Shown here: one piece after another, positions 41,033 through 64,000 of the stretch | Layout of the letters: each line of letters starts with the position of its first letter | Numbering within the stretch: position 1 is the first letter of the stretch | Assembly (NCBI RefSeq): GCF_000411255.1 | Contig: NZ_KE150413.1 | Span: forward strand, 2,766,580 to 2,830,579 | Direction: 5' to 3' | DNA from: Paenibacillus sp. HGH0039 | GTDB taxonomy: Bacteria > Bacillota > Bacilli > Paenibacillales > NBRC-103111 | DNA length: 64,000 nucleotides | Translations under genes and position numbers: made by a program | Notes under the pieces: generated by a model | What the model was told of the DNA's origin: nothing | The model's input: the letters and a program-made list of their open reading frames with translations, nothing else | The model's database searches: none

Positions 41033-41111
41033 ACTGGTTTCGAGGATGATACTTTTCTGTCCATCTTCTCTGCAAGCGCTAAGTGATGAAATATGAGTTG
41101 TTGTCATTGGG

Positions 41112-41167
41112 TTGACAGACCTATCGCGGATAAGTATATTGTACTTACCGACTGTGTAGTCGGTAAG
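41112..41167 (+). promoter_or_regulatory. Sigma-A promoter with adjacent TetR operator
   Basis: TTGACA (41112-41117), a 17 bp spacer and TATATT (41135-41140) form a near-consensus promoter. Directly after it CTTACCGACT-GTGT-AGTCGGTAAG (41144-41167) is a perfect 10+10 palindrome covering the expected transcription start. It drives the CPBP/TetR operon, so the TetR at 42062 very probably autorepresses here. Confidence 0.85.
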
Positions 41168-41191
41168 TGCAATGAGAATGGGGTGCATCTC

Positions 41192-42043: not shown

Positions 42044-42061
42044 GGTTCCCTGGAGGAGCTT

Positions 42062-46949: not shown

Positions 46950-46989
46950 AACGCTCGCCTCCCGGGTAACATGTTGACGCAAGCGGCCT

Positions 46990-47961
46990 TTAAGCGCCGG
47001 CGACAAGCGTGGACCAGAACGCTTTTTCCTTCGCGAACATATCGTCCGCGAGCGCCAGCTCTCTGCCGCGTTCGAAGTCCCCCGTCACAAAGCGGTCCTT
47101 CACCAGATCCCATCCGTCCCTCACTGCGCCAAGCTGACCGGACAGCGACTCATGCAGCGCTTCGCCGATCAGCCTCTTCTCCCGCATGGAGCGGAGCAGC
47201 GACATGTTGGCGATATGCCGGTTGCAAATGATGTTGACGCCGACAAGGCCATAGGTCAAATGAGCTTGCTTCTTCTCCGGGTCGGAATCTACATTCCACA
47301 TACCCTCTATTGAGAACTCGCCAAGCTCCCTCGCCAGCCGCTCCGCATTTTCCACCACTTCAGTCAACTTCAACTCGTAAGGCTGAATCTTTTCCTGCAG
47401 GTTATATACGTAGAAGGCAGGCCCCAAATAGCTCGGGTTCACGTTGTATTCCGAGTTGCCGTACGCCTTGAGCAGCCTTTCCTCGGGCACCTCGTGCTCC
47501 TCGTAGCCGGCAAGCGTATCGTCAATGACGTAGAAGGTGCCGCGCTCCTTGTCGTATCCGTTAAACAGCGAATAATGATACCAATGAAACTTTTTCCAGG
47601 CCATGCTGCCCGGCAGCCAGTCATACAAATCGACGTTTACGCTCAAGTTGCGTCCGCCCTCCAGCATCGCCCTGATTTCATCCGGCACCGTCTCCATGCT
47701 GCGGAAATGACCGGGCTCGATATAGCGGATCACCTGCGACAGCGGGAATCTGGCCGGATCGTCCATATAATACAGCGTGTCAATTGTCGGATAGCGGAAG
47801 TCCTTGTCCGTTGCTGCCTCCCAAGGATAGTACCGGTAAATGTTCAAATACGCCGCATCCCTGTAGCTGGGCTCCTCCGACACCGCAATAGAAAACGCCT
47901 GGTTCAGCATGCAGTTCATCCAAAACTCGTTAAACGGTTTCCTTTCCATCGACAGCTTCAT
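46990..47961 (-). CDS. BtrH_N-like papain-fold protein
   Basis: The ~323-residue protein resembles the butirosin biosynthesis protein H N-terminal family (papain-like fold). Candidate triad residues are Cys17 (EFWMNCMLNQA), His129 (WYHYSLFNGYD) and Asp147 (FYVIDDTL). In butirosin BtrH transfers an acyl chain from an ACP to an amine. A similar acyl-transfer or release role onto an amine would fit a line that ends with a free condensation domain; this is inference. The C-terminal ~150 residues are helical. GGAGGCGGCGAACC precedes the ATG, 30 bases after the megasynthase stop. Confidence 0.7.
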   Translation of the reverse strand: MKLSMERKPFNEFWMNCMLNQAFSIAVSEEPSYRDAAYLNIYRYYPWEAATDKDFRYPTIDTLYYMDDPARFPLSQVIRYIEPGHFRSMETVPDEIRAMLEGGRNLSVNVDLYDWLPGSMAWKKFHWYHYSLFNGYDKERGTFYVIDDTLAGYEEHEVPEERLLKAYGNSEYNVNPSYLGPAFYVYNLQEKIQPYELKLTEVVENAERLARELGEFSIEGMWNVDSDPEKKQAHLTYGLVGVNIICNRHIANMSLLRSMREKRLIGEALHESLSGQLGAVRDGWDLVKDRFVTGDFERGRELALADDMFAKEKAFWSTLVAGA

Positions 47962-47994: not shown

Positions 47995-50900
47995 TCAAGC
48001 AAGCTTGCTTGCCGCAAGCACAGCACTGATTTTTTTCTTTGCTCCGTCTTCGACTAGCGCATGTAGGATCGCCGTATAATCATCCGCCAGCGCCCAGGCG
48101 TTCTCTTCGCGGAAAAGACTTGTCGCATATTCCAGCGTAAAGCCGATCCTGCCGTCCCGCTCCGCCGCTTCAAGCGTCAAATCGAATTTGCTGACGCCCG
48201 GATCGAATTCCTTGGGATCGAATTCAATGCCGCCCGAACGGTAAGCGACGCGATCGATATTTTGCAAAATAAACATCGTATCGAACAGCGGATTGCGGCT
48301 GCGGTCCTGTTCGATTCCCAGCTTTTGCACCAAATCCTCGAACGGATAATTCTGATGCTCCAGTGCCCGCAGCACATCCTCATGCAGCTCGGACAAATAG
48401 TCGCCAACTGTCCGGTACGATTCCGGGAAGCTGCGAATCGCGACCGTATTGACGAACATCCCGATCAGCCCTTCCAGTTGCGCATGATTGCGGCCTGCTA
48501 CCGGCGTGCCGATAATGATATCCTCCTCGTCGCTCCATTTGCTCAGCAGCATCGAATAAGCCCCGAGCAGCACCGTATACAGCGTCGTGCCGCGCTCGCG
48601 CGCAAATGCCTTGATCTTGAGCGTCAGCTCCTCATCCAGTCTGAAGTTGATCAGACTGCCCTCGAAGTTTTGCAGTTCCGGTCTTGACAAGGCTGTCTTG
48701 AGATCCAGCGTCGGCAGCTCCCCTTCGAACGCCTCCAGCCAGTAGCGCTCGTGCCCCATATAGGCCTCGCTGCCGATTTGTTCTTCTTGCCATACCGTGT
48801 AATCCCGGTACTGGATATCCAGCGTCGGCAGCTCGCCGCCCCCGTACAAAGTGGTCAGTTCCTGCAGCAGGACGCTGACGGAGACGCCGTCGGTAATAAT
48901 ATGATGAAAGTCCAGCAGCAGCAGATGGCGCTCCTCGCCAAGCGGAATCAATCCGGCCCGGAACAGCGGGAGACTGCCGAGATCAAACGGACGGATAAAG
49001 CGCTCCATCAGTGCGCTGATGCCGCCGAATAATCCTTCGTCTCCGCCTTCCGCGAGCAGCTTGCCCGCCGCCATTCTCAGCCTGGCATTGCGCTCCAGCG
49101 TAAATACCGGCTCCGCATGCACGCGCTGGCGGAACTCGTCCTCCTCGTGATGGAACGTCGTTCTGAGCGATTCATGGCGGCGCATTATCGCAAGGAAAGC
49201 TTCCTCCAGCCGCTCCACATCGAGCTTGCCTTGCATATGCACGGCGAACGGCACATGGTACATCGTTGCCTCGTCCGAGATCAGCCCCATCATAAATTGG
49301 CGGCGCTGCGGCCTCGACATCGGGTAATGCTCGCGCTCCGGTTGCTTCGGAATGCGCGCGGCCGCCACGGTTCCGCTAGTGTCCAGATGAGCCGCTAAAC
49401 CTTCAAGCGTAGGGTTCATAAAAATGTCGCGCAGCGGCATTTGGATGCCAAAGCGTTCCGCAATGCGGCTGACCATGCCCGCCGCCTTCAGGGAATGGCC
49501 ACCCAGATCGAAAAAGCTGTCCTTGGCGCTGATCGCATCCATACCGAGCAGCTCCTTCCAAATCTCCGCCAGCTTGCGCTCGGTATCCGTCGACAGCGGA
49601 ACAAGCTCGCGTTTGCCCGCGTCGGCCGGTCCCGGCTTTGGCAGCGCCCTTCTGTCGATTTTGCCCGTTGGCGTAAGCGGAATCGCTTCCAGAACGACCA
49701 TGAAGGCCGGAACCATATAAGAAGGCAGTTTGTCCCCGAGATATTCGCGCAACTGTCCGGTCAACCGGCCGGATGGCGCGGCGCCGTCCGGCTCCGCATC
49801 CGCAGCGTTCTGCACGACGACATACGCGCAAAGCGCATATTCCCCATCCTCTTCCTGAAACGCGGTGACGACCGTTTCCTTCACCTGCTCATGGCGAAGC
49901 AGCAACTGCTCAATTTCACCGATTTCAATCCGGTGCCCCCTGATTTTCACCTGGAAATCGCGGCGTCCCGCATAGGCAAACTCCCCATTTTCAAGCCTGC
50001 GCCCAAGGTCGCCCGTGCGATACATGCGTTCGCCCGGCGCGTACGGATTCGGCACAAAAGCGACATCCCATTCGGGATGGCTGAGATACCCGCGCCCGAC
50101 GCCCGGCCCGCCGATGCAAATTTCGCCCGTCACGCCTGTCGGCTGCAGCTTCAGCCCTTCGTCAAGCACCATCATGACGGACCCTTCGATCGGCGTGCCG
50201 ATCGAAATGTGCTCGCCTTCGGTCACTTCCCGGATCGAGGTCCAAACCGTCGTCTCCGTCGGACCGTACAAATTAAACAATCTGGCTCCGGTAGCGGCGC
50301 GCAGTCTGCCGAGCACATCGGCCGTCAGCGGCTCCGCCCCGATCATCAATATGCGCAGCTTTTGCAAACCGTCCGTTTCGCCTCGCTGATTCATCCACCA
50401 TTTGAAGCGCGACGGCGTAATTTGCAGCACATCGACGCCGTGCGCGTCAATCAGGCCTTGCAGTAAGGCGGCGTCGCTCAGTTCCTCTTCGCCCGCGAGT
50501 ACAATCCGCATACCCAGCGTGAGCGGAAGCAGATTTTCAACGACAAAAATATCAAAGGATACCGATGCCATCGCCAGGATGCTCTGGCCCTTCTCAAACG
50601 GAATCCGGTTTCGGAAGCCGCTGATGAAATGCGCCAGGCCGCGATGCTCAATCATCACTCCTTTGGGGCGCCCGGTCGAGCCCGACGTATACAGCACATA
50701 CGCCAATTGGTCCGGCTTATGGACAAACTCCGGATTGCCTCTGTCCGCCGCATACAGCTCCGGATCGTCCAGATACCACTCGGCAACGGCTCTCGTTACG
50801 GCTCCAGCGTATGCTTTTTCCGTCAGCAGAAGCGCTTCGCCGCAATCCTCAAGCATCCAGTCGATCCTCTCTTTCGGGTAAGCGGGATCAATGGCGACAT

Positions 50901-53900
50901 ATGCGCCTCCGGCTTTCAGAACACCCAAAATGCCGACAAGCAGCAGCGGGCTGCGGGACGCCATCAGCGCGACAATGCGCTCGGGCCCCACACCCTTCGC
51001 CCGCAAGGAATGGGCAAGCCGATTCGCGCGTTCGTTCAGCTCGGCGTACGTCACCGTCTCCGCGCCGAACTGAATCGCCGCCGCATCCGGCGTGCGCGCC
51101 GCTTGGCGCTCCACTTTCTGCACAAACCCCGTCCATTCCGCCGTTGCTTGCGTGGAAGCCGCCGCATCTTCTTGCCGGTCCGTCAAACCCTTTTCAGCTC
51201 GAATTTCCATCCTACCGTTGCTCCCCTCTCTACTCGCGGCCTGTACCGGCATGCCTCCTCCGGCCAACAGAGCCAGCAATTGCTCTCGCTCGCTTTCACT
51301 CATCAGCTCAAGCTCGCCGACCGTGCGACCCTGCGATCTGCACATCTCCCGCACGAGTACGATATAGCTTTCCGCCATGCGGCGTGCGGTTTCCTCATGA
51401 AACAAATCCGTCGCGTATTCCAGTTGAAGCTCGATTTCCGCTTCCCGTTCCACGGCTTCCAGAGTCAGGTCGAATTTGCTGGTCCCCGCCTCGAACGGTA
51501 TTTCGCTAAAGACGAGGCCGTCTGCTTCCATCACCGCCCGGTCCATATTTTGCAAAACAAACATGGCGTCAAACAAAGGATTGCGGCTTCTGTCGCTATC
51601 TGCCTTCAGCCCTTCGACCAGCTCCTCGAAAGGATACGTCTGGCGTGAAAGCGCCCCTACGACATGGTTATGCAGCTCCGCCATATAGGCCCGTACGGTC
51701 TTGTCTCTTGCCGGCCTAGTCCGCAGCGCCAGCGTGTTGACGAACATGCCGATCATGCCATGCGTATCTGCATGATCCCTGCCGGCGGTGGGGGTGCCCA
51801 CAATCACTTCAGCCTGCCCGCTGTATTTGGCCAGCATCGCGGCAAAAGCGCCCAGCAGCACCGTATACAGCGTCGTCTTCGCTTCCCGCGCCAGCTTTCG
51901 CGCCTCCGCCGTTGTCCGCGCGTCCAGCCGGAACGAATGGCGGAGGCCCTTATAGCTCGGCAGAGACGGCCGTGGCCGATCCGTCGGCAGCTCCAGCACA
52001 GCAAGCTTGCCTTCGAAGACTTCCATCCAGTATCGCTCATGCTCCGCATAAGCGGCATTTGCAAATCCGGCTTCTTGCCACACCGCATAATCGCTGTATT
52101 GCACGTGCAGCTCCGGCAGCGCTTGTCCGGCATACAGCTGCGACAGCTCATTCACCAGCAAACCGGAGGATACGCCGTCCGTAATAATGTGATGAACATC
52201 CAGCAGCAGCAGATGATCTTCCTCGTTCAACCGAAGCAGCCCCGCCCGCAGCAGCGGCAGCTTGTCCAGATGGAACGGGCGCTGGAAGACTTCCATCAGC
52301 CTCGTCACCTCTGCGCCGTCCGGCGGCGCTCCCCGCAGCGCTTCATCTCCGGTCAACGCTGCGTAATCCAGCGCCTCCAGCTTGAACGCATACGGCGGAT
52401 GAACCATTTGCCTGAACTCGTCCTTTGTCATATGGAAGGTCGTCCGCAAGCTTTCGTGGCGGCGGATCAGCGCCGTAAACGCGTCTTCCAGCCGCGCTAC
52501 ATCCAGCCTGCCCTGCAAGCGGAGCGCGAACGGCACATGATACATGGTGGCGTCTCCGGCCAGCATCTGCATCATATATTGGCGGCGCTGGGCGCGCGAC
52601 ATCGGATACCACTCGCGGCGCTCCGCCTTCGGGATCGGCTCGGCCGCCGCAGCGGTGCCGTCCCGCTCCTTGAGCCAGGCGGCTATTTCGGCAACGGAGG
52701 TAAGCTCGAATATCAGGCTGAGCGGAACCAGGGCGCCCGTCGCCTGCTGCAGCTTTCCCGCCAGCACGGCAGCCTTCAAGGAGTGACCGCCAAGCTCGAA
52801 AAAGTCGTCGTGAATGCCGATTGGCCCGGCCGTATCGCCCAGCACTTCTTCCCAAATGGCGGCGACGCGCTCTTCCATCCCGTCTCGCGGCAGCTCCGGC
52901 TTTCCCCGCTCCCGAAGCCCCAATTCCGGCTCCGGCAAGGCGCGCCGGTCCACTTTCCCGTTCGGCGTCAGCGGTATCCCGTCAATCGCCGCGATATAGG
53001 CCGGAATCATCGCCTCCGGCAGCTTGTCTTTCAGCTTTCTTCGCCATTCCCGCGAAGGGAGCTTGTCCGAAGCGACCACATACGCGCACAGCTCCTTGTC
53101 CCCGCTTGCCTGCTCGCGGATGACCACAACCGCATCCTCCACCTCGGGAAGGGAAATCAATTGCGAGCGAACCTCGTTCATTTCAATCCGCACACCTCTG
53201 ATTTTTACCTGTTGGTCGGCCCGGTCCACATACATCGCGTTGCCGTCCGGCAGCCACTTTGCGATATCACCGGTGCGATACATGAAGCGGCCCTCGCGGT
53301 ACGGATGCGGCAAAAAGCGCTCGGCTGTCATATCCGGCTTGTTCACATAACCGTCGGCAAGGCCGCTGCCGGCAATATACAGCTCCCCGGCTGCATTGAT
53401 AGGGGCAAGCTGGCCGCCATAGCCGAATATATAAATTTCGACATTGTGCATCGGCCCGCCAATCGGCACATAGCCGCCGCGATAAGCGCCCGGCTTGTAT
53501 GCGTACATATTGGAGCAAACCGTCGCCTCCGTCGGGCCGTAGCCGTTAATAATCCGAATCTCGGGATTAAGCTTCGTATACAGCTCCAGCGTTTCGTCTT
53601 TAATCGGCTCTACCCCAACGAGCATTTTGTCTAGCGTAATCGCGGAAGACGATTGCTCCAGCAGCCGCGCAACCTCTTTCAGCAAAGACGGCGGCAAATA
53701 AGCGAATGTAATCCGCTCTTCCGTAATCACTTCGGCAATTCGCCGCGGATCAAGCAATTTCGGCTCCGGGTAAAGCACCGTGCACGCCCCGAACATAAGC
53801 GGCATAAACAGCTCCGCTACGCTGACGTCAAACGAAATATTGGTCAGGCTGAGGCATCTGTCTCTCTCATCGTATTGCCCATCGAAAAACGTCCGGAGCG

Positions 53901-56900
53901 AATGTCCGAAATTGTAAAAGCTGCGGTGCGGCACAATGACGCCCTTCGGCTGCCCCGTAGAACCGGAGGTATAGATGACATACATCGGATCGGCGGCGTC
54001 CTGCGGCCATGCGGCGGCGGCATCGTCTCCGCCGGAGAACATCGTCTCATCCGCAATGTCCAGCACCTGCAAGGAGGCTGGCACGACGGCCCCGGCTCCG
54101 GAACGCGCGCCGTCCGCGAATACCAGCTCCGCCCCGCTGTCCTCCAGCATATAGCGGATGCGCTCCCCCGGATAATGCGGATCTATAGGCATATAAGCGC
54201 CTCCGGCTTTCATAACGGCGAGCATAGCGGTTAGCATAGGGATGGAGCGCTCCGCCATAATGCCGACGACGCTGCCGCGTCCCACACCTTTGGCGCGCAA
54301 GGTTCGCGCCAGCGCATCGGTGCGGCGATCCAGCTCCCGATAGGTCATGGATTCACCGCCGCAAGATACAGCCGGGAGGCCCGGAACGGCCTTCGCCTGT
54401 TCCTTGAAGCAATGATGCAGACAGCGCGGCGGCGGAAAGTCCGCTTCGCGTCTCCCCAGCGCCAGCATGTGCAGGCGCTCCTCCTCCGTCAGCATCTCCG
54501 CTTCGCCGAGCGTGGCGTCGGGACGGAGCGTCACGCTGCGCAGCAGCTGCACATAATGCCGCATGAACCGCTCGGCTGTCGAGCGGCGAAACAAATCGGC
54601 ATTATATTCCACGACAAGCCGCAATTCCGCCCCATTCTCCACAGCCTGAATCATCAAATCGTATTTGGCCGTGCCATGCTCAAAGCGCTGGTGGCGATAC
54701 GACAATCCCGCAGACGAAACGTTTGGAATACCCAGGTTTTGCATGATGAACATCGTGTCAAACAACGGACTCCGGCTGGCGTCCCTTCTGTCCATCCATT
54801 GCGCGATTTCCTCGAATGGATAATCGGCGTGAGCGTAAGCCCCGGTCGCCATCTCTTTCACTTCGGACAAAAAGGCTCTGAACGGCTTGTCCGCGCGCGG
54901 ATAAGCGCGCAGCGCCAGCGTGCCGGTGAACATGCCCGCGATCGCTTCCAGCTCGCGCCTGTCCCTTCCCGCAATCGGCGTGCCGACGGCAATGTCCTCG
55001 GCCCCTGTATAGTGGGCGAGGAAAGTGTAATACGCCGATAGCAGCACCATAAACGGAGTCGCGCCCGATTCGGCCGCGAGGCTGCGCACAGCCGCCGTCA
55101 AACCCGCCTCGACGTACACGTCGAACGTTTCGCCGTGATTTCCTTTGACGGGCGGACGCGGGGCATCGGTCGGAAGCGAAAGCAGCGGCCAGTCCCCCCG
55201 GCATTGCTCGCGCCAATACCGTTCGGCATTCCCGGAGAGCGGCCTGCTCTCCTGCCATACCGCATAATCTTTGTATTGCAGCGGCAGCGGCGGCAACGAA
55301 CCGCCCAGATATAAAGTCATCAGGTCGGACAAAAGAATGCCCGCCGACATGCCGTCGGATGCTATATGATGCATATCAAGAAACAGCACGTGTCTCTTCG
55401 GCCCCAGCGTCAGCAAGGCTGCGCGGAGCAGCGGAGCCGTATCGAGCCTGAACGGCCGGAACAAGCTTTGCAGCACACCGTCCGCCTCCGCTTCATCGGC
55501 CTCCATGCGAATCAGGCGGAAAGGAATGGCGGCGTGAATGCGCTGCCTGATCTCTCCGTCGATGACGTGGAAGGTGGTGCGAAGCGTCTCGTGACGCTCC
55601 ACGATGGCTTGCAGGACGGCCTCCAGCCGGTCTGCATCAATAGCTCCTTCCAAGTGCAACAATTCGGGCAGATTGTAGCTGCGATCATCCGGCATCGCCT
55701 GCTGCTGCAAATACATGCGTTTCTGCGGCGATGAAACCGGATAATGCTCTTGCGGGGCCGCCTTTGGAATCGGCTCCAGCGTATCGCCGGACAAAGAGTC
55801 GGACGCTTGGCCGGTCAACGGCCCGACATGCCCGCCTGACCCTCCTGCTTCGTCACGGCCGCCGGACGCCGCTTGCCCGTCATAACCGCCGTTCGCCTCG
55901 TGCCCGCCGTTCCCGACGTCCGCTCCTTGTCCATCGTGCCCAGCGTTCGTTCTTTGCGCTGTCGCCGCGCCGCTCTCCCTGAGCCGCCGCTCGATGAGCG
56001 CCGTGAACGAAGGCAAATCCGCATGCCCCAGCAAATCCGCCGCCTGAATGCGGACGCCCGCAAGCTCGCTGAGCCGGTTTACAATTTTGAGCGCAATAAT
56101 GGAATCTCCACCCAGCTCGTAAAAACCGGCATCCGAAGGCAATTCGTCATAACCGAGCAGGTCTCCCCAGACATCTGCGACATGCTGCTCCCATTCCAGG
56201 CCGGAGCGCTCCCCGGTTAACGCAACGCCGCGGCGGCGCTGACTCGTCATCCCGCCGCTCCGCTCCAGCGCGGCTTGCCATCTGGCAAACGTTTCGTTCA
56301 TTTCTTGCCCAAGCTCTTCGGGAATATCTCCACCGACCGAATATCCGTTCCAGGCCGCAAATGGTGTATGAAGCGCCGCTCCGGCGCGCGCCTCCTCCAC
56401 CCAGCAACGGTGAGAATCGAACGGATACGTCGGAAGCGGCAGCCGCTTTCGGCGTTGTCCTAGGTAGATCGCCTTCCAGTCGATCTCGTATCCGCCCACG
56501 TAACGTTGGCCCAGCTCCATCGCGTCCATTTCCCGTTCGTTTGGAACGGGCTGCTGCCGCATATTCCCGGCCGCAGCCGAATCGGCCGCCCCGAAACGGA
56601 CGTTCGGCAGAGCAAGGCCGGTAAGATCTCTTTCGGCTGCGGCATGCAAGGTCTGGATAAGCTCTTCCCAGCCGCTTACCGCAATCGCCAGGCGATACCG
56701 ATGGGCTCCCCGACCGACGGCCAAGGTGTAGCAAAGGTCGGCCAGGCTGCGGCTCTCATCGCCGCGATGCTGCAGAGCCCAGTCCCGCATCAGCAGCACG
56801 AGCCGCTCCAGCGCCGTCATGCTGTGCGCGGACAAGCAGAACAGCTCCGCTCTGTCCAACCGACCCGATGGCAATCCGTCGGGAGCCTCCTCCAGCACAA

Positions 56901-58251
56901 CATGGCAATTGGTCCCGCTCATGCCGAACGCGCTTACTCCGCATCTTCTTGCTTCGCCGTCCGTCTCCCATGGCGTCAATTCGTCATTGACATAAACGGG
57001 CGAATCCACGAACGAAATGTTGCGGTTCGGCGAGCGGTAATGAAGCGTTGGCGGAAGCTGCTTGTGGACAAGCGACAGGATCCCCTTGAGCAGCCCAGCA
57101 ATGCCGGCGGCATGGTCGAGATGGCCGATATTTGTTTTCAGCGAGCCGATGGCGCAAAATTGCCGTTTATCGGTATATCTCCGGAAGGCGCGCGTCAGCC
57201 CGTCGATTTCGATCGGGTCCCCCAGCGAGGTTCCCGTGCCGTGCGCCTCCATATACGTCACCGTTTCGGGATCGATGTCCGCATCCTGCCAGGCGCGCGC
57301 AATGACGTCCTCCTGCGCGAGGGCGTTCGGGGCGGTAATGCCGACCGAGCTGCCGTCCTGATTCATCGCGCTGCCTTTGATGACGGCATAAATAGGGTCG
57401 CCGTCCTCCTGCGCGCGGGACAGCGGCTTCAGCAGCAGCGCAATCACGCCGTCGCCGATGCCCGTGCCGTCCGCGGAGTCGTCGAACGTTCTGGCCCGGT
57501 TGTCGCTTGACTCGATGCCAAGCCGTATGCCGGTATCCAGCGGCAGTACGTTAATTTTGACGCTGCCGGCAATCGCCGCCTCGCATTCGCCGCTGCGGAT
57601 CGATTGGCATGCCAGATGGACTGCTACCAGCGAGGAGGAGCAGGCGGTGTCCACGCTGATCGCCGGTCCGCGCAAATTAAGCAAATACGAAATCCGGCTC
57701 GGTATCATGGAGCTCAGATTGCCGGGCGCCGCCATGGACAAGGCGTCCGGGTCCAGCGCTTCTATGATTCGCTTGTAATCATGGAGCGCGTCCCCGTTAT
57801 AGCCGATAAAGACGCCGGTGCGCGAACCATGCAGCGCATCTCCTCCGTACCCCGCATTCTCAAGCGCGCCCCAGGCCGTCTGCAGGAACAGGCGCTGCGC
57901 CGGACTCATCAGCGAGGCTTCCTTGGGCGAAAGCCGGAAAAAAGAATAGTCAAAACCTGAAATATCTTCGATATACGCCCCGTCAAAAAAGGAAACGGAG
58001 CCGTATTGCGCCTCCATGCGGCGCAAATACGGCTTCAATTCCTCCTTGCGGGAATCCGGAAACCCGCCTACCAGGTCCTTGCCGCTCCGCAGAAGCTCCC
58101 AGAAGGCTTCGTGCGATTCCGCGCGCGGCAGCTTGGCGGATATCCCGACAATCGCAATATCCTTGAGGGAAACATTGGAGACGGAGCCTCCGCTCCGCCC
58201 CTTCCGCCCGGATGTGTCTTTTTTGGTATCCAGCAAATCCAATTGAAACAT
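47995..58251 (-). CDS. Hybrid PKS-NRPS megasynthase KS-ACP-C-A-T-C-A-T-C
   Basis: 3418 residues. KS at ~30-455 with intact Cys204 (DTACSSS), His337 (EAHGTGT) and His377 (NIGHLDH). A post-KS linker follows with no AT, KR or DH, then ACP (Ser717, GGDS). A Gly/His/Asn-rich linker spans 761-830. C1 has HHIASDG at 960; A1 ~1285-1770; T1 Ser1823. C2 has HHIITDG at 2019; A2 ~2380-2870; T2 Ser2919. C3 at ~2970-3400 has HHIITDG, and there is no thioesterase. Code residues read by eye: A1 D-V-A-Y-L-G-G-V-C-K (no confident match); A2 D-I-V-Q-M-G-L-V-W-K, Gly-like. There is no epimerase or methyltransferase. Missing AT activity is presumably supplied by the product at 44931. AGGAGGGAAGGGCGCC precedes the ATG. 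Confidence 0.92.
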   Translation of the reverse strand: MFQLDLLDTKKDTSGRKGRSGGSVSNVSLKDIAIVGISAKLPRAESHEAFWELLRSGKDLVGGFPDSRKEELKPYLRRMEAQYGSVSFFDGAYIEDISGFDYSFFRLSPKEASLMSPAQRLFLQTAWGALENAGYGGDALHGSRTGVFIGYNGDALHDYKRIIEALDPDALSMAAPGNLSSMIPSRISYLLNLRGPAISVDTACSSSLVAVHLACQSIRSGECEAAIAGSVKINVLPLDTGIRLGIESSDNRARTFDDSADGTGIGDGVIALLLKPLSRAQEDGDPIYAVIKGSAMNQDGSSVGITAPNALAQEDVIARAWQDADIDPETVTYMEAHGTGTSLGDPIEIDGLTRAFRRYTDKRQFCAIGSLKTNIGHLDHAAGIAGLLKGILSLVHKQLPPTLHYRSPNRNISFVDSPVYVNDELTPWETDGEARRCGVSAFGMSGTNCHVVLEEAPDGLPSGRLDRAELFCLSAHSMTALERLVLLMRDWALQHRGDESRSLADLCYTLAVGRGAHRYRLAIAVSGWEELIQTLHAAAERDLTGLALPNVRFGAADSAAAGNMRQQPVPNEREMDAMELGQRYVGGYEIDWKAIYLGQRRKRLPLPTYPFDSHRCWVEEARAGAALHTPFAAWNGYSVGGDIPEELGQEMNETFARWQAALERSGGMTSQRRRGVALTGERSGLEWEQHVADVWGDLLGYDELPSDAGFYELGGDSIIALKIVNRLSELAGVRIQAADLLGHADLPSFTALIERRLRESGAATAQRTNAGHDGQGADVGNGGHEANGGYDGQAASGGRDEAGGSGGHVGPLTGQASDSLSGDTLEPIPKAAPQEHYPVSSPQKRMYLQQQAMPDDRSYNLPELLHLEGAIDADRLEAVLQAIVERHETLRTTFHVIDGEIRQRIHAAIPFRLIRMEADEAEADGVLQSLFRPFRLDTAPLLRAALLTLGPKRHVLFLDMHHIASDGMSAGILLSDLMTLYLGGSLPPLPLQYKDYAVWQESRPLSGNAERYWREQCRGDWPLLSLPTDAPRPPVKGNHGETFDVYVEAGLTAAVRSLAAESGATPFMVLLSAYYTFLAHYTGAEDIAVGTPIAGRDRRELEAIAGMFTGTLALRAYPRADKPFRAFLSEVKEMATGAYAHADYPFEEIAQWMDRRDASRSPLFDTMFIMQNLGIPNVSSAGLSYRHQRFEHGTAKYDLMIQAVENGAELRLVVEYNADLFRRSTAERFMRHYVQLLRSVTLRPDATLGEAEMLTEEERLHMLALGRREADFPPPRCLHHCFKEQAKAVPGLPAVSCGGESMTYRELDRRTDALARTLRAKGVGRGSVVGIMAERSIPMLTAMLAVMKAGGAYMPIDPHYPGERIRYMLEDSGAELVFADGARSGAGAVVPASLQVLDIADETMFSGGDDAAAAWPQDAADPMYVIYTSGSTGQPKGVIVPHRSFYNFGHSLRTFFDGQYDERDRCLSLTNISFDVSVAELFMPLMFGACTVLYPEPKLLDPRRIAEVITEERITFAYLPPSLLKEVARLLEQSSSAITLDKMLVGVEPIKDETLELYTKLNPEIRIINGYGPTEATVCSNMYAYKPGAYRGGYVPIGGPMHNVEIYIFGYGGQLAPINAAGELYIAGSGLADGYVNKPDMTAERFLPHPYREGRFMYRTGDIAKWLPDGNAMYVDRADQQVKIRGVRIEMNEVRSQLISLPEVEDAVVVIREQASGDKELCAYVVASDKLPSREWRRKLKDKLPEAMIPAYIAAIDGIPLTPNGKVDRRALPEPELGLRERGKPELPRDGMEERVAAIWEEVLGDTAGPIGIHDDFFELGGHSLKAAVLAGKLQQATGALVPLSLIFELTSVAEIAAWLKERDGTAAAAEPIPKAERREWYPMSRAQRRQYMMQMLAGDATMYHVPFALRLQGRLDVARLEDAFTALIRRHESLRTTFHMTKDEFRQMVHPPYAFKLEALDYAALTGDEALRGAPPDGAEVTRLMEVFQRPFHLDKLPLLRAGLLRLNEEDHLLLLDVHHIITDGVSSGLLVNELSQLYAGQALPELHVQYSDYAVWQEAGFANAAYAEHERYWMEVFEGKLAVLELPTDRPRPSLPSYKGLRHSFRLDARTTAEARKLAREAKTTLYTVLLGAFAAMLAKYSGQAEVIVGTPTAGRDHADTHGMIGMFVNTLALRTRPARDKTVRAYMAELHNHVVGALSRQTYPFEELVEGLKADSDRSRNPLFDAMFVLQNMDRAVMEADGLVFSEIPFEAGTSKFDLTLEAVEREAEIELQLEYATDLFHEETARRMAESYIVLVREMCRSQGRTVGELELMSESEREQLLALLAGGGMPVQAASREGSNGRMEIRAEKGLTDRQEDAAASTQATAEWTGFVQKVERQAARTPDAAAIQFGAETVTYAELNERANRLAHSLRAKGVGPERIVALMASRSPLLLVGILGVLKAGGAYVAIDPAYPKERIDWMLEDCGEALLLTEKAYAGAVTRAVAEWYLDDPELYAADRGNPEFVHKPDQLAYVLYTSGSTGRPKGVMIEHRGLAHFISGFRNRIPFEKGQSILAMASVSFDIFVVENLLPLTLGMRIVLAGEEELSDAALLQGLIDAHGVDVLQITPSRFKWWMNQRGETDGLQKLRILMIGAEPLTADVLGRLRAATGARLFNLYGPTETTVWTSIREVTEGEHISIGTPIEGSVMMVLDEGLKLQPTGVTGEICIGGPGVGRGYLSHPEWDVAFVPNPYAPGERMYRTGDLGRRLENGEFAYAGRRDFQVKIRGHRIEIGEIEQLLLRHEQVKETVVTAFQEEDGEYALCAYVVVQNAADAEPDGAAPSGRLTGQLREYLGDKLPSYMVPAFMVVLEAIPLTPTGKIDRRALPKPGPADAGKRELVPLSTDTERKLAEIWKELLGMDAISAKDSFFDLGGHSLKAAGMVSRIAERFGIQMPLRDIFMNPTLEGLAAHLDTSGTVAAARIPKQPEREHYPMSRPQRRQFMMGLISDEATMYHVPFAVHMQGKLDVERLEEAFLAIMRRHESLRTTFHHEEDEFRQRVHAEPVFTLERNARLRMAAGKLLAEGGDEGLFGGISALMERFIRPFDLGSLPLFRAGLIPLGEERHLLLLDFHHIITDGVSVSVLLQELTTLYGGGELPTLDIQYRDYTVWQEEQIGSEAYMGHERYWLEAFEGELPTLDLKTALSRPELQNFEGSLINFRLDEELTLKIKAFARERGTTLYTVLLGAYSMLLSKWSDEEDIIIGTPVAGRNHAQLEGLIGMFVNTVAIRSFPESYRTVGDYLSELHEDVLRALEHQNYPFEDLVQKLGIEQDRSRNPLFDTMFILQNIDRVAYRSGGIEFDPKEFDPGVSKFDLTLEAAERDGRIGFTLEYATSLFREENAWALADDYTAILHALVEDGAKKKISAVLAASKLA

Positions 58252-58265
58252 GGCGCCCTTCCCTC

Positions 58266-59069
58266 CTAGTTAGTAATGGAATCGCTGACGGCCTGTCCTT
58301 TTTCCGCCCTTCCGCCGCTCCCGCGCAGCAGCAGCAACACATGCGCCGCGATGCCGAGTCCGCTGACCAGGGCTAATAATCCAAGTGTACCGGACTGCCA
58401 ATCGCCCGCCCATTGCAGCACGATATACAAGGTGCCTGTGCTGCACACATGGGCCGCAAGCGACCCCCAAAGCGAACGCGAGCCGGCGCGGACGGCGCCG
58501 TATACGATCGCGCCCAGCGCCGCAAATGCGCCAATCGTCACATTCATAAATACCGCGCCGAACAATACGGCCTGGAGCAGAACCGTCCACGGAACCGAAA
58601 GACGTTGACGCAGCGTATGGAACAGCATTCCTCTGAACAGCCATTCCTCCAGCAAAGACCCCAGCAGCAAGCTGCCGAGCACAAAAATGATCAGGCTGCC
58701 GCCGGCGACAAAAGCGACCAGATCCGAAATAGCCGGAAAGGTCGCTTTTATCCACGGAAGACGGGTAAAAGCGGCGATAAACAAGCCGAGCCAGACACCC
58801 GTCCCTGCGGACAGCAGCAACGAACCGCCGCGCGCAGGAACAAACCCCAAATCGCTCAGCGAAATTTTTTGCCAACGCAGCAGCGGAAGATAGACGGCAA
58901 GCACGATGATATTGGATACAATCAGCACAATGCCGGAATTGTCGGCGATCCAGTCTTTCAGCCCGGGATCGCTGATCCAGTTGTAGAGCGCTTGATTGAC
59001 AAGCATCACGATCGCCGCATAAATGACCAAATATAAGACGGTATTTCCCGCTACTCGCAATCCCTTCAC
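58266..59069 (-). CDS. CPBP-fold membrane protein 1 of the NRPS operon (degenerate motifs)
   Basis: The 267-residue protein has about eight helices. Motif 1 is intact (LLEEWLFRGMLF, EExxxR). Motif 2 reads LFGAVFMN, with no His where FxxxH is expected, and motif 3 keeps His in AAHVCSTG. The start is the GTG in GTGA overlapping the preceding gene's stop, so translation is coupled. It is one of three consecutive CPBP genes inside the operon. It could be a protease with altered chemistry, an immunity protein or a membrane partner of the assembly line. Confidence 0.78.
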   Translation of the reverse strand: MKGLRVAGNTVLYLVIYAAIVMLVNQALYNWISDPGLKDWIADNSGIVLIVSNIIVLAVYLPLLRWQKISLSDLGFVPARGGSLLLSAGTGVWLGLFIAAFTRLPWIKATFPAISDLVAFVAGGSLIIFVLGSLLLGSLLEEWLFRGMLFHTLRQRLSVPWTVLLQAVLFGAVFMNVTIGAFAALGAIVYGAVRAGSRSLWGSLAAHVCSTGTLYIVLQWAGDWQSGTLGLLALVSGLGIAAHVLLLLRGSGGRAEKGQAVSDSITN

Positions 59070-59875
59070 GCCGACTTCACCGCCTTGGAAGACAGCGGCG
59101 CGGAGACCGAAGAACGGTGCTTGACCGCAAGGAATATGCCAACCGCAATTATGGCGGCCGCCACAGCCATCACGATGGACATGACGGTGACGTCCGTCGT
59201 CTCCGGCCCGTAATGCCAAAGCAGGTATTGGCTGCCCTGACAGGCGACTTGCGCGGCAATCGGCGCCCAGATGGATTTAAACCAGACATACAAGAGTGCA
59301 AAAATAACCGCGCCGAGAAAGCCGTACAGCGACAGCGGAATGTCTCCCAAAAAGAACAACGCCCCGTACAACACGCCCTGAATCACAATTGCGACCCAAA
59401 CGGGGAGCACTCGTCTGAACTCATTCATCAGAATGCCTCTGAACAACGTCTCTTTGTAAATATTTCCGAGAAGCAGAAAAACCAGAAATACATACCATTC
59501 CGCTCGGTTCAGATAATCAAACAATTCATGAAACCGGTATTTGTCCGATGCTATGGCGGGAAGCCGGGAGAAAGCGACCGTAAACAGGCCGGCTCCAAGT
59601 CCGATCCATAAAGCGATTGCCACCGATTTTCCGCCCATCACGCGGAATTGGGCCGCTTTAAACAGATTTTCTTTGAATATAAACCTCCAGGCCAGCAGCA
59701 TGAGCGGCAAACCCACCATATCGTTCAAAATAATGACGGTTACCGTGTTCTGTTCAAACCACGTGCTTTTCGGGTATACATAATCGAAAAATAATGTCGT
59801 TGCGGTAAAAAACCATGCAAAATACAGGCCGATAACAACGGCCACGCGAGCCAGCATCATTCCCCACGCCTTCAT
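59066..59875 (-). CDS. CPBP-fold membrane protein 2 of the NRPS operon (degenerate motifs)
   Basis: The 269-residue protein has about eight helices. The motif 1 region reads GNIYKETLFRGILM, so the first Glu of EExxxR is Lys. The motif 2 region YGALFFLGD has no His and motif 3 (APIAAQVACQG) has Gln for His. The fold is recognisable but protease activity by the usual mechanism is unlikely. AAGGGGGTCTGACCGC precedes the ATG, four bases after the previous stop. Confidence 0.78.
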   Translation of the reverse strand: MKAWGMMLARVAVVIGLYFAWFFTATTLFFDYVYPKSTWFEQNTVTVIILNDMVGLPLMLLAWRFIFKENLFKAAQFRVMGGKSVAIALWIGLGAGLFTVAFSRLPAIASDKYRFHELFDYLNRAEWYVFLVFLLLGNIYKETLFRGILMNEFRRVLPVWVAIVIQGVLYGALFFLGDIPLSLYGFLGAVIFALLYVWFKSIWAPIAAQVACQGSQYLLWHYGPETTDVTVMSIVMAVAAAIIAVGIFLAVKHRSSVSAPLSSKAVKSA

Positions 59876-59879
59876 GCGG

Positions 59880-60752
59880 TCAGACCCCCTTATGTGCTGC
59901 CGACGGCGCGTCAGCCGTCAGCGCTTGACCGGCGCGTGCGCCGATGCCGCCGTTGCCGGAGGTCCGCCAAACATAGACGGAACCTCCAATCAACGCAGCC
60001 AGACAGAGCGCTGTAATGATATACAGCGAAACATCGTCCAACTTGTCAAACCATTCGTAGAACCCGATATATTTAAATAGAAAGATTGTGCCCATGGCCG
60101 TATTCTGTACCAGAATAGGCGCCCACAGCGACCCGGTGCGTAAATACAGCGACCCGTAAATCAGGCCCGAACCGATGCTGATAACCGAAAGCGCCGCGCT
60201 CGGCTGAAAGTAGGCGTAAGCCGCGGCTTGCAGCAACAAGGCCGCATATACCGGCATAACCCTGCGCAGCTCGCTGAAAATGAGGCCCCTGAACAATATT
60301 TCTTCAAAGGCCGGGCCGATCAAACCGGCGCCCAGTATGACGTACCAGATCGAATCCCCCCTGATCAGATCGTCGACCAGCGCGGGAATGGACGGAAATT
60401 GCCGCGCAATATCGTCAATGACGATAAGGCCGATGCTGAACAAGCTTCCGGCAAGACCCAGGCCAATCATCAGCAAGACGCGCGAGGCGCTCAGCCGTTT
60501 GAAGCCCGACGCGCGGAACAGATTTTTTTCCGCATGGGGCCAGATCCATCCTTTGATACGAAAAATGAGCATGTACACAAGCGTAATCAGCGTGAACAGG
60601 ACGACCATAAACATGGCCGGGTTCCGATCCAGAAACTTGGCGAAGGACAGCGTCACTTCGTAATTGTAAGTTGAGCGAAGCAGATAGAGCAGCGCATAAA
60701 AGACCCCGAGATAAAGCGCGATATTCCCTATCATGGTCAACACTTTTTTCAC
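59880..60752 (-). CDS. CPBP-fold membrane protein 3 of the NRPS operon (degenerate motifs)
   Basis: The ~290-residue protein has about eight helices and is the first transcribed of the three. Motif 1 is intact (AFEEILFRGLIF), motif 2 reads AYAYFQPS with Gln for His, and motif 3 reads APILVQNTAMG with Gln for His. The GTG at 60750-60752 follows AAAGGAGCTTTCCT and is far better than in-frame starts further upstream, which lie inside the NRPS gene. The C-terminal tail after the last helix is Gly/Ala-rich. Confidence 0.78.
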   Translation of the reverse strand: MKKVLTMIGNIALYLGVFYALLYLLRSTYNYEVTLSFAKFLDRNPAMFMVVLFTLITLVYMLIFRIKGWIWPHAEKNLFRASGFKRLSASRVLLMIGLGLAGSLFSIGLIVIDDIARQFPSIPALVDDLIRGDSIWYVILGAGLIGPAFEEILFRGLIFSELRRVMPVYAALLLQAAAYAYFQPSAALSVISIGSGLIYGSLYLRTGSLWAPILVQNTAMGTIFLFKYIGFYEWFDKLDDVSLYIITALCLAALIGGSVYVWRTSGNGGIGARAGQALTADAPSAAHKGV

Positions 60753-60820
60753 AGGAAAGCTCCTTTCTTCCTTCGTCAGATGTATTCTCAGGGTCAGGCA
60801 CAACCAGGGCTTGCCCCATG

Positions 60821-63800
60821 CTACGCCCCCGAGACGGCGCTGCCTGATGCGGCGCGATATTGTTCGACCACGCTCGACAGCAGCTCCAGATAAGCGGAAG
60901 CCCAATCCAGCACCGCCTCCTTGCCGAGGCGCCGGGCGTTGTATGTCCATACCCCGCCAAGCTTTGGTCCCTCTGCCTCGCTTGGTGCGGCAGCGCCATC
61001 CATATACAGCACAACATCGAATTGTTCCAATAGCGCCTCCCGATCCTTGAACCCGTGCTGCGCTGCTCCCGCAAATAACGGGAACAAGGCAAATCCGGCT
61101 TCGGCTTGCGGCTGCTTTCTGATTTGCCGCGCGGTATAACATTCTCCCGCGCTCGTCCGCTTGGCGGCATGCCGCAGCAGCGTATCGAATTCGCGCACCT
61201 CCGCAAAGTCGATTTCCTTCGGGGCAATCAGCCCGTTGTGCGACATTGCCGGAAGCACAAGCCGGCCCATGCCGGACTCGCCGCGCCAGAAGTACAGATA
61301 TACGGCATAAGCCACGGCTTCAACGGTCACCGAGCGGGATGCCGCAAGTTCCGCAAGCCCTTCCGCAACCGCCCGGTCCAGTTGGAACTGAACGCTGCCG
61401 ATACGCTCCGCGGCATAACCGCTGCTGACGCAGTCGTCTGCCACAGGCAGACCGCTCCAGCACCAAATCGCGAGCTCGCGATTTCTAGACTCCAGATAAG
61501 CCGCAAGCGATGCGATCGTCGGATAGGTGAACAAATCCGTTACGCCGAGAGCGCCGGGATACAACTCCTCCAGCCGTTGATGCGCCTGCACCAGCAGTAG
61601 CGATTCTCCCCCAACATCGAAGAAACGATGATGGATGCCGAAGTCGTTCCTTTGCAGGATTTCGCGCCATACGGCGGCAATCGCCAGTTCGATATCGCTT
61701 GCCGCTTCGACAAACGGAGTGCCGCTATCCGCCGCAGGCTCCGGCTCCGGCAGCGCCTTCCGGTCGATTTTGCCGTTTGGAGACAGGGGCATGGCTGGAA
61801 GTTCCACCACGGCCTGCGGAACCATATAATCCGGCAGGCGCAGCGCTGCAAAATCCCGCAGTTCCTGATGGTCCGCAGGTTCGGAGCAAACGATGTACGC
61901 GCATAAATATTCGCTTCCGCTTGCGGCGTCCCGCTTCATGACCACCGCTTCTGAAACCGCCGGATGACCGAGCAGCACATGCTCGATTTCCCCGCATTCG
62001 ATGCGCTGGCCCCTTATTTTTACTTGATGGTCGATTCGGCCCAAATATTCGATCGTTCCGTCAGGCAGCCATCTGGCAAGGTCTCCTGTCCGATACATCA
62101 GACTGCCCGCCGCAAACGGATTATCGACGAATTTTTCTGCCGTCAAATCGGGCCGGCCGATATAACCCCGCGCCAGACCCGCGCCGGATATGCACAGTTC
62201 CCCGGCGATGCCGACGGGCTGGAGCTTCATCGCTTCGCTCACGATATAAAGCGAGATGTTGTCGATCGGCTTACCAATCGGCACCTGGATCGGAATATCG
62301 CCGTCAGAGCAATCGTAATAGGAAACGTCAACCGTCGCCTCGGTCGGGCCGTACAAGTTCACAAGCCTGGCATCGAACGGAACTCCAATCCGCTCGCGGA
62401 ACCGCCGCACCTGATCCGCAGTCAGCGCTTCGCCGCTGGCGAACACATGACTCAGGCTCTCCAGCCTGGCCTCGCCGCGCAGCAAGCCGGGATACTCAAG
62501 GAACAGGTGCAGCATGGACGGCACAAAATGCATCGTCGTTACGCCATGCCGCGCTATCGTATCCATCATAAGCGCGGGGTCCTTTTCGCCGCCCGGAGGC
62601 AGCAGGACCAGTTTGGCTCCCGCAAAGCTCCACCAGAACAGCTCCCAGACCGATACGTCGAAGGTAATAGGCGTTTTCTGCATAATGACTCCGCTTGCGT
62701 CCAGTCCGTATTGCTTCTGCATCCAGCCGATCCGGTTGACGACGGAACGATGCTCGATCATGACCCCTTTCGGCTGTCCGGTCGATCCCGAAGTATACAG
62801 CACATAAGCAAGCGAACGTGAATCATGCAGCTTCTCCATAGGGAAGTCGTCCCGCTCCTGCGCCAGCGCCTCATGAACGTCCATAAATGGCAGGAACGTC
62901 TCCAGCCCTTCCGGGGCTTTGCCCTTTGTCAAGACAAGCTTGGCTCCGGAATTGTCCAGCATGTAGCGGATTCGCTCCGGCGGCAAGCCCGGCGCAACAG
63001 GCACATAAGCTCCGCCCGCCTTCAGCACGCCAAACATTGCAATCATCATCTCCAGGCTGCGATCCATCACGACGGCCACGCGTTCCTCGCGCTTGACGCC
63101 TTGCTTTCTGAGCGCCTGCGCCAGCCGGTTCGACCTGCGGTTCAATTCCGCATACGTCAATGCTCCGTCCTCCGCCGCAACCGCAACGGCTTGCGGCGTT
63201 TCGGCCGCATGTCTTTCGAGGTAAACCTCTACCGTATCGCCGCTTGCATACGGCGCGGCCGTGCGATTGAACGCTTCGCACTGCTTCTCCGCTGCCGCGG
63301 CGCCCTGCAGCCCGATCCCTCCAAGCGGCCGTTCCGGTTCAGCCAGTGCAAGGCCGACAATACGGAAATACCATTCCGCCATTCTGTGTATGCTGTCTTC
63401 TTTAAACAACGCCGTCGCATATTCGATCGTCAAGGCTGCGCCTTTTGCACCCTGATCCGCAATCTCAAACGTCAAGTCCAGCTTCGATACGCGATTGTCC
63501 GGCACTTGCGCCTCGAATTGCAAGGCGTCCGCCGCCGCCTGTCCGGCTTCCATATGCTGCATGACAAACATCGTGTCAAACAGCGGATTGCGGCTCAGGT
63601 CGCGCGGCACATCCAGCATCGTCACCATATGCTCAAACGGGAGCAAGCCGTTGTCCAGCGCCGCAAGCGCAGTTTCTTTGAGCTGCTCGGCGAACGCTCT
63701 GAACGGCAGTTCGCCGGATGGCCTGCTGCGAATCGGCAGCGTATTGACAAACATGCCGACCAGAGACTCGGTTGCGGGATGGAAGCGGCCGGCGATCGGC

Positions 63801-64000
63801 GTGCCGACAATAAGATCGTCTTGCCCCGTCATCAGATGCAATAACGTATGGTAGGCGGCAAGCCAGATATGGAACGGCGTAACGCCCCATTGCTCCGCCG
63901 CCGCTCCGATCCCCTCGGCAAGCTCCGCCGGAATCGGCAGCGCTAGCTTGGCGCCTTCGAAGCTTTGTTCAGGCGGACGCGGATAATCGGTCGGCAGTTG
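60821..64000 (-). CDS. NRPS C-A(Ser-like)-T with a C-terminal half condensation domain (5' end outside window)
   Basis: The frame is open through the right edge; 1059 codons are visible. In order: the C-terminal part of a condensation domain (IVGTPIAGRFHPA ... SRNPLFDTMFVMQ); an adenylation domain with YTSGSTGQPKG, TFDVSVWE, NLYGPTEAT, YRTGDLARW and NGKIDRKAL; and a carrier domain with FFDVGGESLLL. Code residues read by eye are D-V-W-H-F-S-L-V-D-K, the well-known Ser code. The last ~215 residues resemble only the second half of a condensation domain (QFQLDRAVAEGLAELAASRS, FDVVLYMDG) and lack HHxxxDG. The next megasynthase begins with a KS, so this piece may be a docking module. Confidence 0.9.
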   Translation of the reverse strand, partial: QLPTDYPRPPEQSFEGAKLALPIPAELAEGIGAAAEQWGVTPFHIWLAAYHTLLHLMTGQDDLIVGTPIAGRFHPATESLVGMFVNTLPIRSRPSGELPFRAFAEQLKETALAALDNGLLPFEHMVTMLDVPRDLSRNPLFDTMFVMQHMEAGQAAADALQFEAQVPDNRVSKLDLTFEIADQGAKGAALTIEYATALFKEDSIHRMAEWYFRIVGLALAEPERPLGGIGLQGAAAAEKQCEAFNRTAAPYASGDTVEVYLERHAAETPQAVAVAAEDGALTYAELNRRSNRLAQALRKQGVKREERVAVVMDRSLEMMIAMFGVLKAGGAYVPVAPGLPPERIRYMLDNSGAKLVLTKGKAPEGLETFLPFMDVHEALAQERDDFPMEKLHDSRSLAYVLYTSGSTGQPKGVMIEHRSVVNRIGWMQKQYGLDASGVIMQKTPITFDVSVWELFWWSFAGAKLVLLPPGGEKDPALMMDTIARHGVTTMHFVPSMLHLFLEYPGLLRGEARLESLSHVFASGEALTADQVRRFRERIGVPFDARLVNLYGPTEATVDVSYYDCSDGDIPIQVPIGKPIDNISLYIVSEAMKLQPVGIAGELCISGAGLARGYIGRPDLTAEKFVDNPFAAGSLMYRTGDLARWLPDGTIEYLGRIDHQVKIRGQRIECGEIEHVLLGHPAVSEAVVMKRDAASGSEYLCAYIVCSEPADHQELRDFAALRLPDYMVPQAVVELPAMPLSPNGKIDRKALPEPEPAADSGTPFVEAASDIELAIAAVWREILQRNDFGIHHRFFDVGGESLLLVQAHQRLEELYPGALGVTDLFTYPTIASLAAYLESRNRELAIWCWSGLPVADDCVSSGYAAERIGSVQFQLDRAVAEGLAELAASRSVTVEAVAYAVYLYFWRGESGMGRLVLPAMSHNGLIAPKEIDFAEVREFDTLLRHAAKRTSAGECYTARQIRKQPQAEAGFALFPLFAGAAQHGFKDREALLEQFDVVLYMDGAAAPSEAEGPKLGGVWTYNARRLGKEAVLDWASAYLELLSSVVEQYRAASGSAVSGA

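Follow-up and report, generated by a model that had tools for sequence, protein, structure and literature searches.

We analysed a 64,000-nucleotide stretch of DNA (hereafter the window, G000:C2:2766580-2830579) from the 6.36-Mb genome of Paenibacillus sp. HGH0039, in which a gene cluster combines nonribosomal peptide synthetase (NRPS) and polyketide synthase (PKS) parts. Open reading frame (ORF) and Pfam scans located the cluster genes in one row on the minus strand (43528-64000), entering from beyond the right edge of the window. The row successively comprises the end of a first synthetase, N1, with a Ser module, three CPBP membrane proteins, a second synthetase, N2, a BtrH-like protein, a thioesterase (TE), a stand-alone acyltransferase (AT) acting in trans and an M20 metallohydrolase (Table 1). 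In the flanking DNA to the right of the window are found the start of N1 with two additional modules, then panD and, further upstream, a family-2 glycosyltransferase (GT2) gene; the cluster as a whole spans G000:C2 ~2810100-2841700. No stop codon or frameshift was detected in the core genes of the row inside the window, and the active-site motifs of the ketosynthase (KS), AT, TE and condensation (C) domains are intact there. Family scans matched no transporter family among the proteins of the window's row. A first, sequence-only reading had seen here a trans-AT PKS/NRPS hybrid, with three CPBP proteins, a BtrH-like protein and an M20 enzyme in its gene set. Both points hold: the KS and its acyl carrier protein (ACP) stand without an AT in cis and the stand-alone AT scores above the fabD cut-off (275.1 against 260.9 bits), while the accessory proteins match PF02517 three times, BtrH_N distantly and under cut-off, and PF01546.

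Table 1. Cluster genes and domains located in the window (positions are those of the window; A, adenylation domain; T, carrier domain)
Feature	Position	Strand	Evidence or content
N1, 3' part	60821..64000	-	C3 end, Ser A domain (~61739-63283), carrier, ~215-aa tail
CPBP1, Rce1-like membrane protein	59880..60752	-	PF02517 2e-13 for longer ORF 59880-61142; start set from orthologues
CPBP2, Rce1-like membrane protein	59066..59875	-	PF02517 4e-13; degenerate motifs
CPBP3, Rce1-like membrane protein	58266..59069	-	PF02517 7e-13 for longer ORF 58266-59219; start set from orthologues
N2, 3418 aa	47995-58251	-	KS-ACP-C-A-T-C-A-T-C
N2 KS	~56632-58176	-	
N2 ACP	55972-56199	-	
N2 C4	54442-55740	-	
N2 A4	52912-54411	-	Met-like; followed by T
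N2 C5	51262-52614	-	
N2 A5	49612-51141	-	Gly-like; followed by T
N2 terminal C	48052-49329	-	
BtrH-like protein, 331 aa	46990..47985	-	invariant Cys25/His134/His137/Asp155
Stand-alone (type II) thioesterase	46233..47006	-	PF00975 2.7e-35; GHSMG and GGHF
Trans-acting malonyl AT, FabD-like, 426 aa	44931..46211	-	PF00698 and TIGR00128 above cut-off; GHSLG
M20 family metallohydrolase	43528..44916	-	PF01546 8e-26; metal ligands present by eye

Full-length N1 (4050 aa, G000:C2:2827400-2839552) consists of an AMP-binding domain and a carrier, which stand before C1, three C-A-T modules and a tail of ~215 aa. The top NCBIfam match of the first domain is a fatty acyl-AMP ligase (FAAL) subfamily (339 bits, cut-off 600); the matches ranked after it are mostly FAAL or long-chain acyl ligases, several of the best 12 being FAAL families, and all lie below cut-off. 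The specificity positions of the A domains were taken from the alignment. The A1 code, DGFFLGVVFK, is presumably Ile-like, by likeness to bacitracin synthetase. The A2 and A3 codes, the latter inside the window, both read DVWHFSLVDK and point to Ser; a published Ser code, DVWHLSLVDK, is one position off (PMC12283262). The tail of N1 stays without a Pfam match when the threshold is relaxed to E 10. It could be aligned in 18 of the 19 N1 proteins compared below, that is, in all uninterrupted ones, and by eye appears to resemble the C-terminal half of a condensation domain. Additional NRPS-like regions matching an N1 module are found in the same genome at G000:C2:2241196-2264516, C1:273139-305891 and C1:2048394-2057187.

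In N2, Pfam recovered one KS, three C domains, two A domains and three carriers, with no KR, DH or acyltransferase family. The KS module is made of KS, linker and ACP, and its motifs DTACSSS, EAHGTGT and NIGH are intact. The HHxxxDG motif is preserved in all six C domains of N1 and N2, including the terminal one, downstream of which the protein contains nothing more. The A4 code is DVAYLGGVCK and the A5 code DIVQMGLVWK. Met codes published in PMC12283262 read DVFYLGGVFK, DVFYLGGVCK and DVWYLGGICK, and a Gly code DILQLGMIWK; A4 equals one of these Met codes at 9 of 10 positions. Because of these resemblances, Met and Gly are the most likely residues for A4 and A5, respectively. The nearest solved A domain was also considered as a guide to A4. 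LgrA came first because two of its A domains were summed (372 and 337 bits), and its rank is therefore uninformative on the A4 substrate. The A-domain code strings had no match in the open-licence PubMed Central literature. As the sequence-only reading had it, a Ser module is followed by a malonyl unit without reduction in cis, then by an unassigned and a Gly-coded module and a final C domain. The order that it gave stands; its chain was incomplete, as a FAAL-type start, an Ile-like and a first Ser residue precede, and the residue left unassigned looks Met-like.

The BtrH-like protein has no Pfam match at 1e-3, BtrH_N appearing under cut-off at E 0.033. At E values up to 1, BtrH_N was matched by 23 of 25 aligned homologues (best 3e-5), the window protein included, and Cys25, His134, His137 and Asp155 are unchanged in all 25 rows. 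We regard the label as probably right but remote. Compared with PDB sequences, the protein gave a single match, at E 0.78, of no use. Its likeness to BtrH of butirosin is a distant family match, with conserved Cys/His/Asp residues; it remains under the Pfam cut-off and its function is putative. A second BtrH-like gene, 42% identical, was seen at G000:C2:983932-984909 (L044:13933-14910), in a locus that also holds an adenylation/nitroreductase fusion, an aminotransferase, a halogenase-like flavoprotein and a Na/H exchanger. Each of the other four same-genus genomes carries a BtrH-like paralogue (38-41%), one of them with a further 32% copy.

A search with a BtrH-like profile retrieved 40 loci in named genomes, 26 of which (L055-L080) hold the same kind of cluster; the other 14 showed no cluster genes besides A domains at 22-26% identity. 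At 1e-10, a BtrH-like match was present in 25 of 392 genomes of the order, paralogues counted. Detailed comparison was carried out on 19 clusters, the window's included, from Paenibacillus (n=17) and Cohnella (n=2). This set leaves out G004, for which the DNA covered takes in just part of N1, and L057, L064, L066, L069, L071, L074 and L077 were examined around N2-M20 alone, within locus reach. Synteny therefore extends across many Paenibacillus, to clusters whose product has no name. All 19 share the order FAAL-type start-Ile-Ser-Ser-[malonyl]-X together with three CPBP stretches, and all are accompanied by a BtrH-like homologue. The codes of A1 to A3 are identical in 19/19, down to 43-47% identity, while A4 reads DV(A/C/S)YLGG(V/I)CK, with two variable positions. 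HHxxxDG was found in 114 of 116 C domains, the exceptions being QHxxxDG in P. pinisoli and a fragment in P. pasadenensis. What follows A4 differs among clusters: the two Cohnella lack a Gly-type module, 14 clusters have one, P. antarcticus has two and two strains have three. N2 ends with a C domain in the 17 Paenibacillus clusters (interrupted in P. pini) and without one in the two Cohnella. M20 was not found in the P. pasadenensis cluster. In P. pini, both N1 and N2 are interrupted in that assembly, through true loss or sequencing error. Among the open-licence PubMed Central articles listed in searches for the cluster and its features, no title or opening of an abstract named it, and these searches found no product in print.

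Two variations of the gene row were also observed. At L073:11751-14975, and in counterparts in L074-L077, a gene between TE and AT encodes a partial C domain followed by an A domain, coded DVHVMGVVWK or DVHVIGVVWK, and a carrier; among these five clusters, three were seen with two or three Gly-type modules. In Cohnella phaseoli (L079:7945-11961), a short-chain dehydrogenase, an AMP-binding enzyme and a KAS III-like protein surround the BtrH-like gene, and because of these added genes the beta-keto group may undergo processing in trans there.

Three CPBP stretches lie between N1 and the KS gene in 19/19 clusters. In both Cohnella the AT gene is located among them, and in P. pasadenensis the three are spread across three forward frames. 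The C. phaseoli row contains an MFS gene, unlike that of the window. In the window, the CPBP ORFs lie between 58266 and 61142, and starts based on orthologues give shorter proteins. Glutamic intramembrane proteases of the CPBP/Rce1 type carry the motifs ExxxR, FxxxH and HxxxN. Aligned and compared with these motifs, CPBP1-3 retain ExxxR, whereas the His of FxxxH is missing in all three; the His of HxxxN is missing in CPBP1 and CPBP2, and motif 2 of CPBP3 is degenerate. The remaining Paenibacillus rows, among those listed, concur on motif 2 of the trio. A further CPBP gene, on the plus strand (41093-42043), retains all protease motifs, so that motif loss is not general to CPBP proteins of this genome. 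This gene lies beside a QacR-like TetR gene (41093-42670 for the pair), both strand-opposed to the cluster row. The pair was weighed as a possible cluster component and seems to lie outside it; next to the other clusters TetR lacks a counterpart, a comparison that did not include the CPBP gene itself. Outside the stretch from glycosyltransferase to M20, the genes of the 40-kb region are shared, among the 19, solely with P. chitinolyticus, save for a dehydrogenase match at 25%. To our knowledge, the trio would be the first lead suggesting that degenerate CPBP proteins partner a nonribosomal peptide.

The panD gene found just upstream of N1 (G000:C2:2839617-2839964) scores 174.1 bits with TIGR00223 against a cut-off of 106, and its product contains the Gly-Ser cleavage site (VGSIT). 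It adjoins N1 in 17 of 19 clusters. In the two Cohnella, no panD was found upstream of N1 in the stretch covered, and each genome has one panD elsewhere. Thus, panD and the terminal C domain are both present in 17/19 clusters and both absent in 2/19. All 18 Paenibacillus genomes searched contain at least one panD apart from the cluster copy, and in an alignment of 31 PanD out of 42 found, the cluster copies branch separately from the others. Seven cluster copies are 87-98% identical to that of the window, which in turn shares 65% identity with the housekeeping copy of its genome. A third panD was observed in 4/5 genomes of the genus. Three of these copies were aligned, without that of P. lutrae (C1:288122), and they fall close to the cluster copies. 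The third gene of the window genome (G000:C1:1872105-1872449, L211) adjoins a DAO-type oxidoreductase, near a 1546-aa frame with collagen-like repeats.

In order to follow the history of the cluster, synonymous divergence from the window's N1 and N2 and from its rpoB was compared in 18 relatives. rpoB was taken over the central matched stretch, shorter for P. gorillae, and P. pini entered as two large pieces, as assembled. In 8 of the 18 relatives, cluster divergence was 0.19-0.56, against 1.2 to saturation for rpoB. With FJAT-26967 and P. lutrae, of the same genus, rpoB gave ~1.2 and N1/N2 0.19-0.25; with P. dendrobii, SC116, tuaregi, pini, solani and gorillae, rpoB ranged from 1.4 to saturation and the cluster from 0.23 to 0.56. 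In contrast, cluster and rpoB were concordant in P. chitinolyticus (0.11-0.14), the BtrH-like protein of which is 97% identical. Values of ~1 against 2.0-2.4 were obtained for P. pinisoli and 1011MAR3C5, and of 1.3 against 2.8 for P. pasadenensis. No case for recent transfer arises from shirakamiensis (2.1-2.3), the two Cohnella (1.6-2.0, as high as rpoB) or three saturated relatives. Because cluster divergence lies far below that of rpoB in 8/18 relatives, the cluster has moved horizontally. SC116 and P. solani belong to a family other than that of the window genome, and transfer between families is claimed for these two genomes of known family. PanD points the same way: the cluster copy is 94-98% identical to the window's in SC116, solani, tuaregi, 1011MAR3C5 and pinisoli, as compared to 69-72% for the housekeeping copies; the corresponding values are 87 and 75% in L3-i20 and 95 and 92% in FJAT-26967. 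Constraint on PanD may account for part of this high identity. dN/dS was 0.08-0.37 in 15/18 pairs, those where it could be computed. The sequence-only reading had taken frameshifts or truncations in upstream core genes as an argument for a dead cluster. That reading was rejected, as intact frames and dN/dS below 0.4 argue against it.

We consider it somewhat probable, at roughly 55%, that the locus forms the 3' half of an intact trans-AT NRPS-PKS cluster and that the product is a linear lipopeptide carrying a beta-ketoamide inside the chain, set free by transfer from the terminal C domain to a small free amine. The FAAL-type domain and carrier of N1 would start the chain with a fatty acyl group, which the Ile-like, Ser and Ser modules would extend. 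The stand-alone AT would load malonyl onto the ACP of N2 and the KS would add two carbons to the seryl chain, so that a beta-ketoamide would link Ser to Met. Less surely, the terminal C domain would then hand the chain to a small free amine, with beta-alanine as candidate, and the product of this strain might be acyl-Ile-Ser-Ser-(CH2CO)-Met-Gly-beta-Ala. The Cohnella copies, which have neither Gly modules, terminal C domain nor panD, should terminate differently. As a guess, the BtrH-like enzyme may shift or trim the acyl chain, M20 may trim the chain and the CPBP trio may serve export or self-protection.

Beta-alanine made by the cluster PanD is proposed as a candidate acceptor because panD and the terminal C domain co-occur and because precedents exist for release by a C domain onto a free amine and for FAAL/decarboxylase clusters. 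In the rhabdopeptide system, the terminal C domain of Kj12C (Kj12ABC) passes the chain to a free amine, mostly phenylethylamine (PMC6195595), and that of glidonin takes putrescine (PMC10587159). The latter source lists putrescine, spermidine, agmatine, phenylethylamine, tryptamine and tyramine as terminal amines. The fungal pleosporacin (ple) cluster combines FAAL, NRPS and an aspartate decarboxylase proposed as the source of the beta-alanine in the product (PMC12177691). It differs by a DtxS4-homologous decarboxylase in place of PanD, a cyclic product and, in the gene list as seen in that source, the absence of a PKS. Paenilipoheptin (phn, Paenibacillus polymyxa) is likewise a hybrid NRPS trans-AT PKS lipopeptide, with an order, as described, different from that found here (PMC11959601).

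Several points weigh against this interpretation. The structure of the product is a prediction from the genes. P. lutrae and FJAT-26967, of the same genus, lack both TE and AT while N1, N2 and M20 are intact; the stand-alone AT is thus missing in 2/19 clusters, and this loss implies that TE and AT are dispensable or replaceable there. Both genomes carry other AT genes elsewhere, 36-46% identical. At the site of the loss in P. lutrae (G002:C1:332331-332477), a 49-residue remnant near the AT end, with in-frame stop codons, was observed. The FAAL matches of N1 remain under the NCBIfam cut-offs, and the Ile assignment of A1 depends on likeness to bacitracin synthetase. A4 and the published Met code disagree at position 239, an Ala code resembles two of the Met codes by 70% or more, and A5 matches the published Gly code at just 6/10 positions (PMC12283262). 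Co-occurrence of panD and terminal C may be one evolutionary event. The release precedents describe diamines, polyamines and amines of the aryl or agmatine type as acceptors (PMC6195595, PMC10587159), and the pleosporacin decarboxylase was dispensable in a heterologous host (PMC12177691).

An unlikely but serious alternative is that the terminal C domain takes a polyamine such as spermidine, the cluster PanD merely boosting beta-alanine for CoA and phosphopantetheine. Spermidine requires no cluster gene and, in paenilamicin, Gly reportedly precedes the terminal spermidine. The terminus of that compound is 4,3-spermidine (PMC9054821), and putrescine and spermidine are among the published terminal amines (PMC10587159). 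However, a supply role leaves unexplained why just the two clusters devoid of a terminal C domain lack panD, an argument that is weak because these are two close relatives.

It is rather doubtful that the BtrH-like enzyme hands the chain to a separate acceptor such as a sugar or a lipid, leaving the terminal C domain just a docking or structural role. BtrH of butirosin takes an acyl group off a carrier protein and attaches it to an amine. The presence of the BtrH-like gene in 19/19 clusters, including the two Cohnella without terminal C, and that of a GT2 gene upstream in 12/19, the window's among them, agree with such a role. However, the terminal C domain keeps HHxxxDG in 17/17 (P. pini being interrupted further on), with conservation about equal to that of its neighbours. 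Moreover, no GT2 gene was seen in the 2.6-5.7 kb upstream of N1 in seven clusters: the two Cohnella, SC116 and the four further Paenibacillus that fall outside the closest group.

A self-resistance role of the cluster PanD, with the lipopeptide inhibiting the housekeeping enzyme, would fit a second, separately branching and strongly conserved copy adjoining the first core gene. We find it improbable: the catalytic residues are the same in both copies with no resistant change visible, the Cohnella clusters manage without cluster PanD, and beta-alanine supply accounts equally well for the second copy.

Finally, an edeine- or paenilamicin-type cationic antibiotic cluster, the kinship considered in the sequence-only reading, would also have a KS-ACP without reduction, Ser and Gly codes and a terminal C domain, but is made very improbable by the FAAL-type start, the Ile-Ser-Ser-Met-like codes and the operon without GNAT gene. 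The scanned operon genes matched neither a GNAT nor an S12-type family, and the sole ABC-named match is to the CPBP part of NF041647 (permease/CPBP family), at 27-42 of 435 bits, far under cut-off. Neither an amino-acid start with cationic residues nor, among the genes scanned, N-acetyltransferase or peptidase/ABC self-resistance genes were found. In paenilamicin (pam, Paenibacillus larvae), as described in PMC9054821, NRPS1 activates Lys or Arg, and PamZ, an N-acetyltransferase, and PamJ, an ABC exporter/peptidase-like protein, are present. That system is also a Paenibacillus NRPS-PKS hybrid with Gly and a C-terminal amine; the description sets it apart from the FAAL-type start, Ile-Ser-Ser-malonyl-Met-Gly order, CPBP trio and PanD found here. 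The likeness to edeine and paenilamicin is an analogy of release only. The rhabdopeptide and glidonin systems, whose last C domain also gives the chain to a free amine, likewise differ by acceptor, mostly phenylethylamine and putrescine, respectively, as compared to the beta-alanine proposed here.

Returning to the linear lipopeptide, the cluster probably gives its hosts something useful, because a large cluster keeps its frames and nearly all of its motifs and codes while crossing Paenibacillus families. A bolder and quite tentative view is that of a mobile family with the core acyl-Ile-Ser-Ser-(beta-keto)-Met plus 0-3 Gly and a beta-alanine cap where panD is present. There, the three apparently protease-dead CPBP proteins would form a new complex for export or immunity, perhaps because intramembrane proteases of the CPBP type are the target of the compound. 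The family has two unusual accessories, a PanD tied to the terminal C domain and a degenerate CPBP trio. Since the Ser-malonyl-Met core does not vary, it is a pointer to where the activity of the molecule resides, and the clusters with 0, 1, 2 or 3 Gly-type modules make up a ready structure-activity set.

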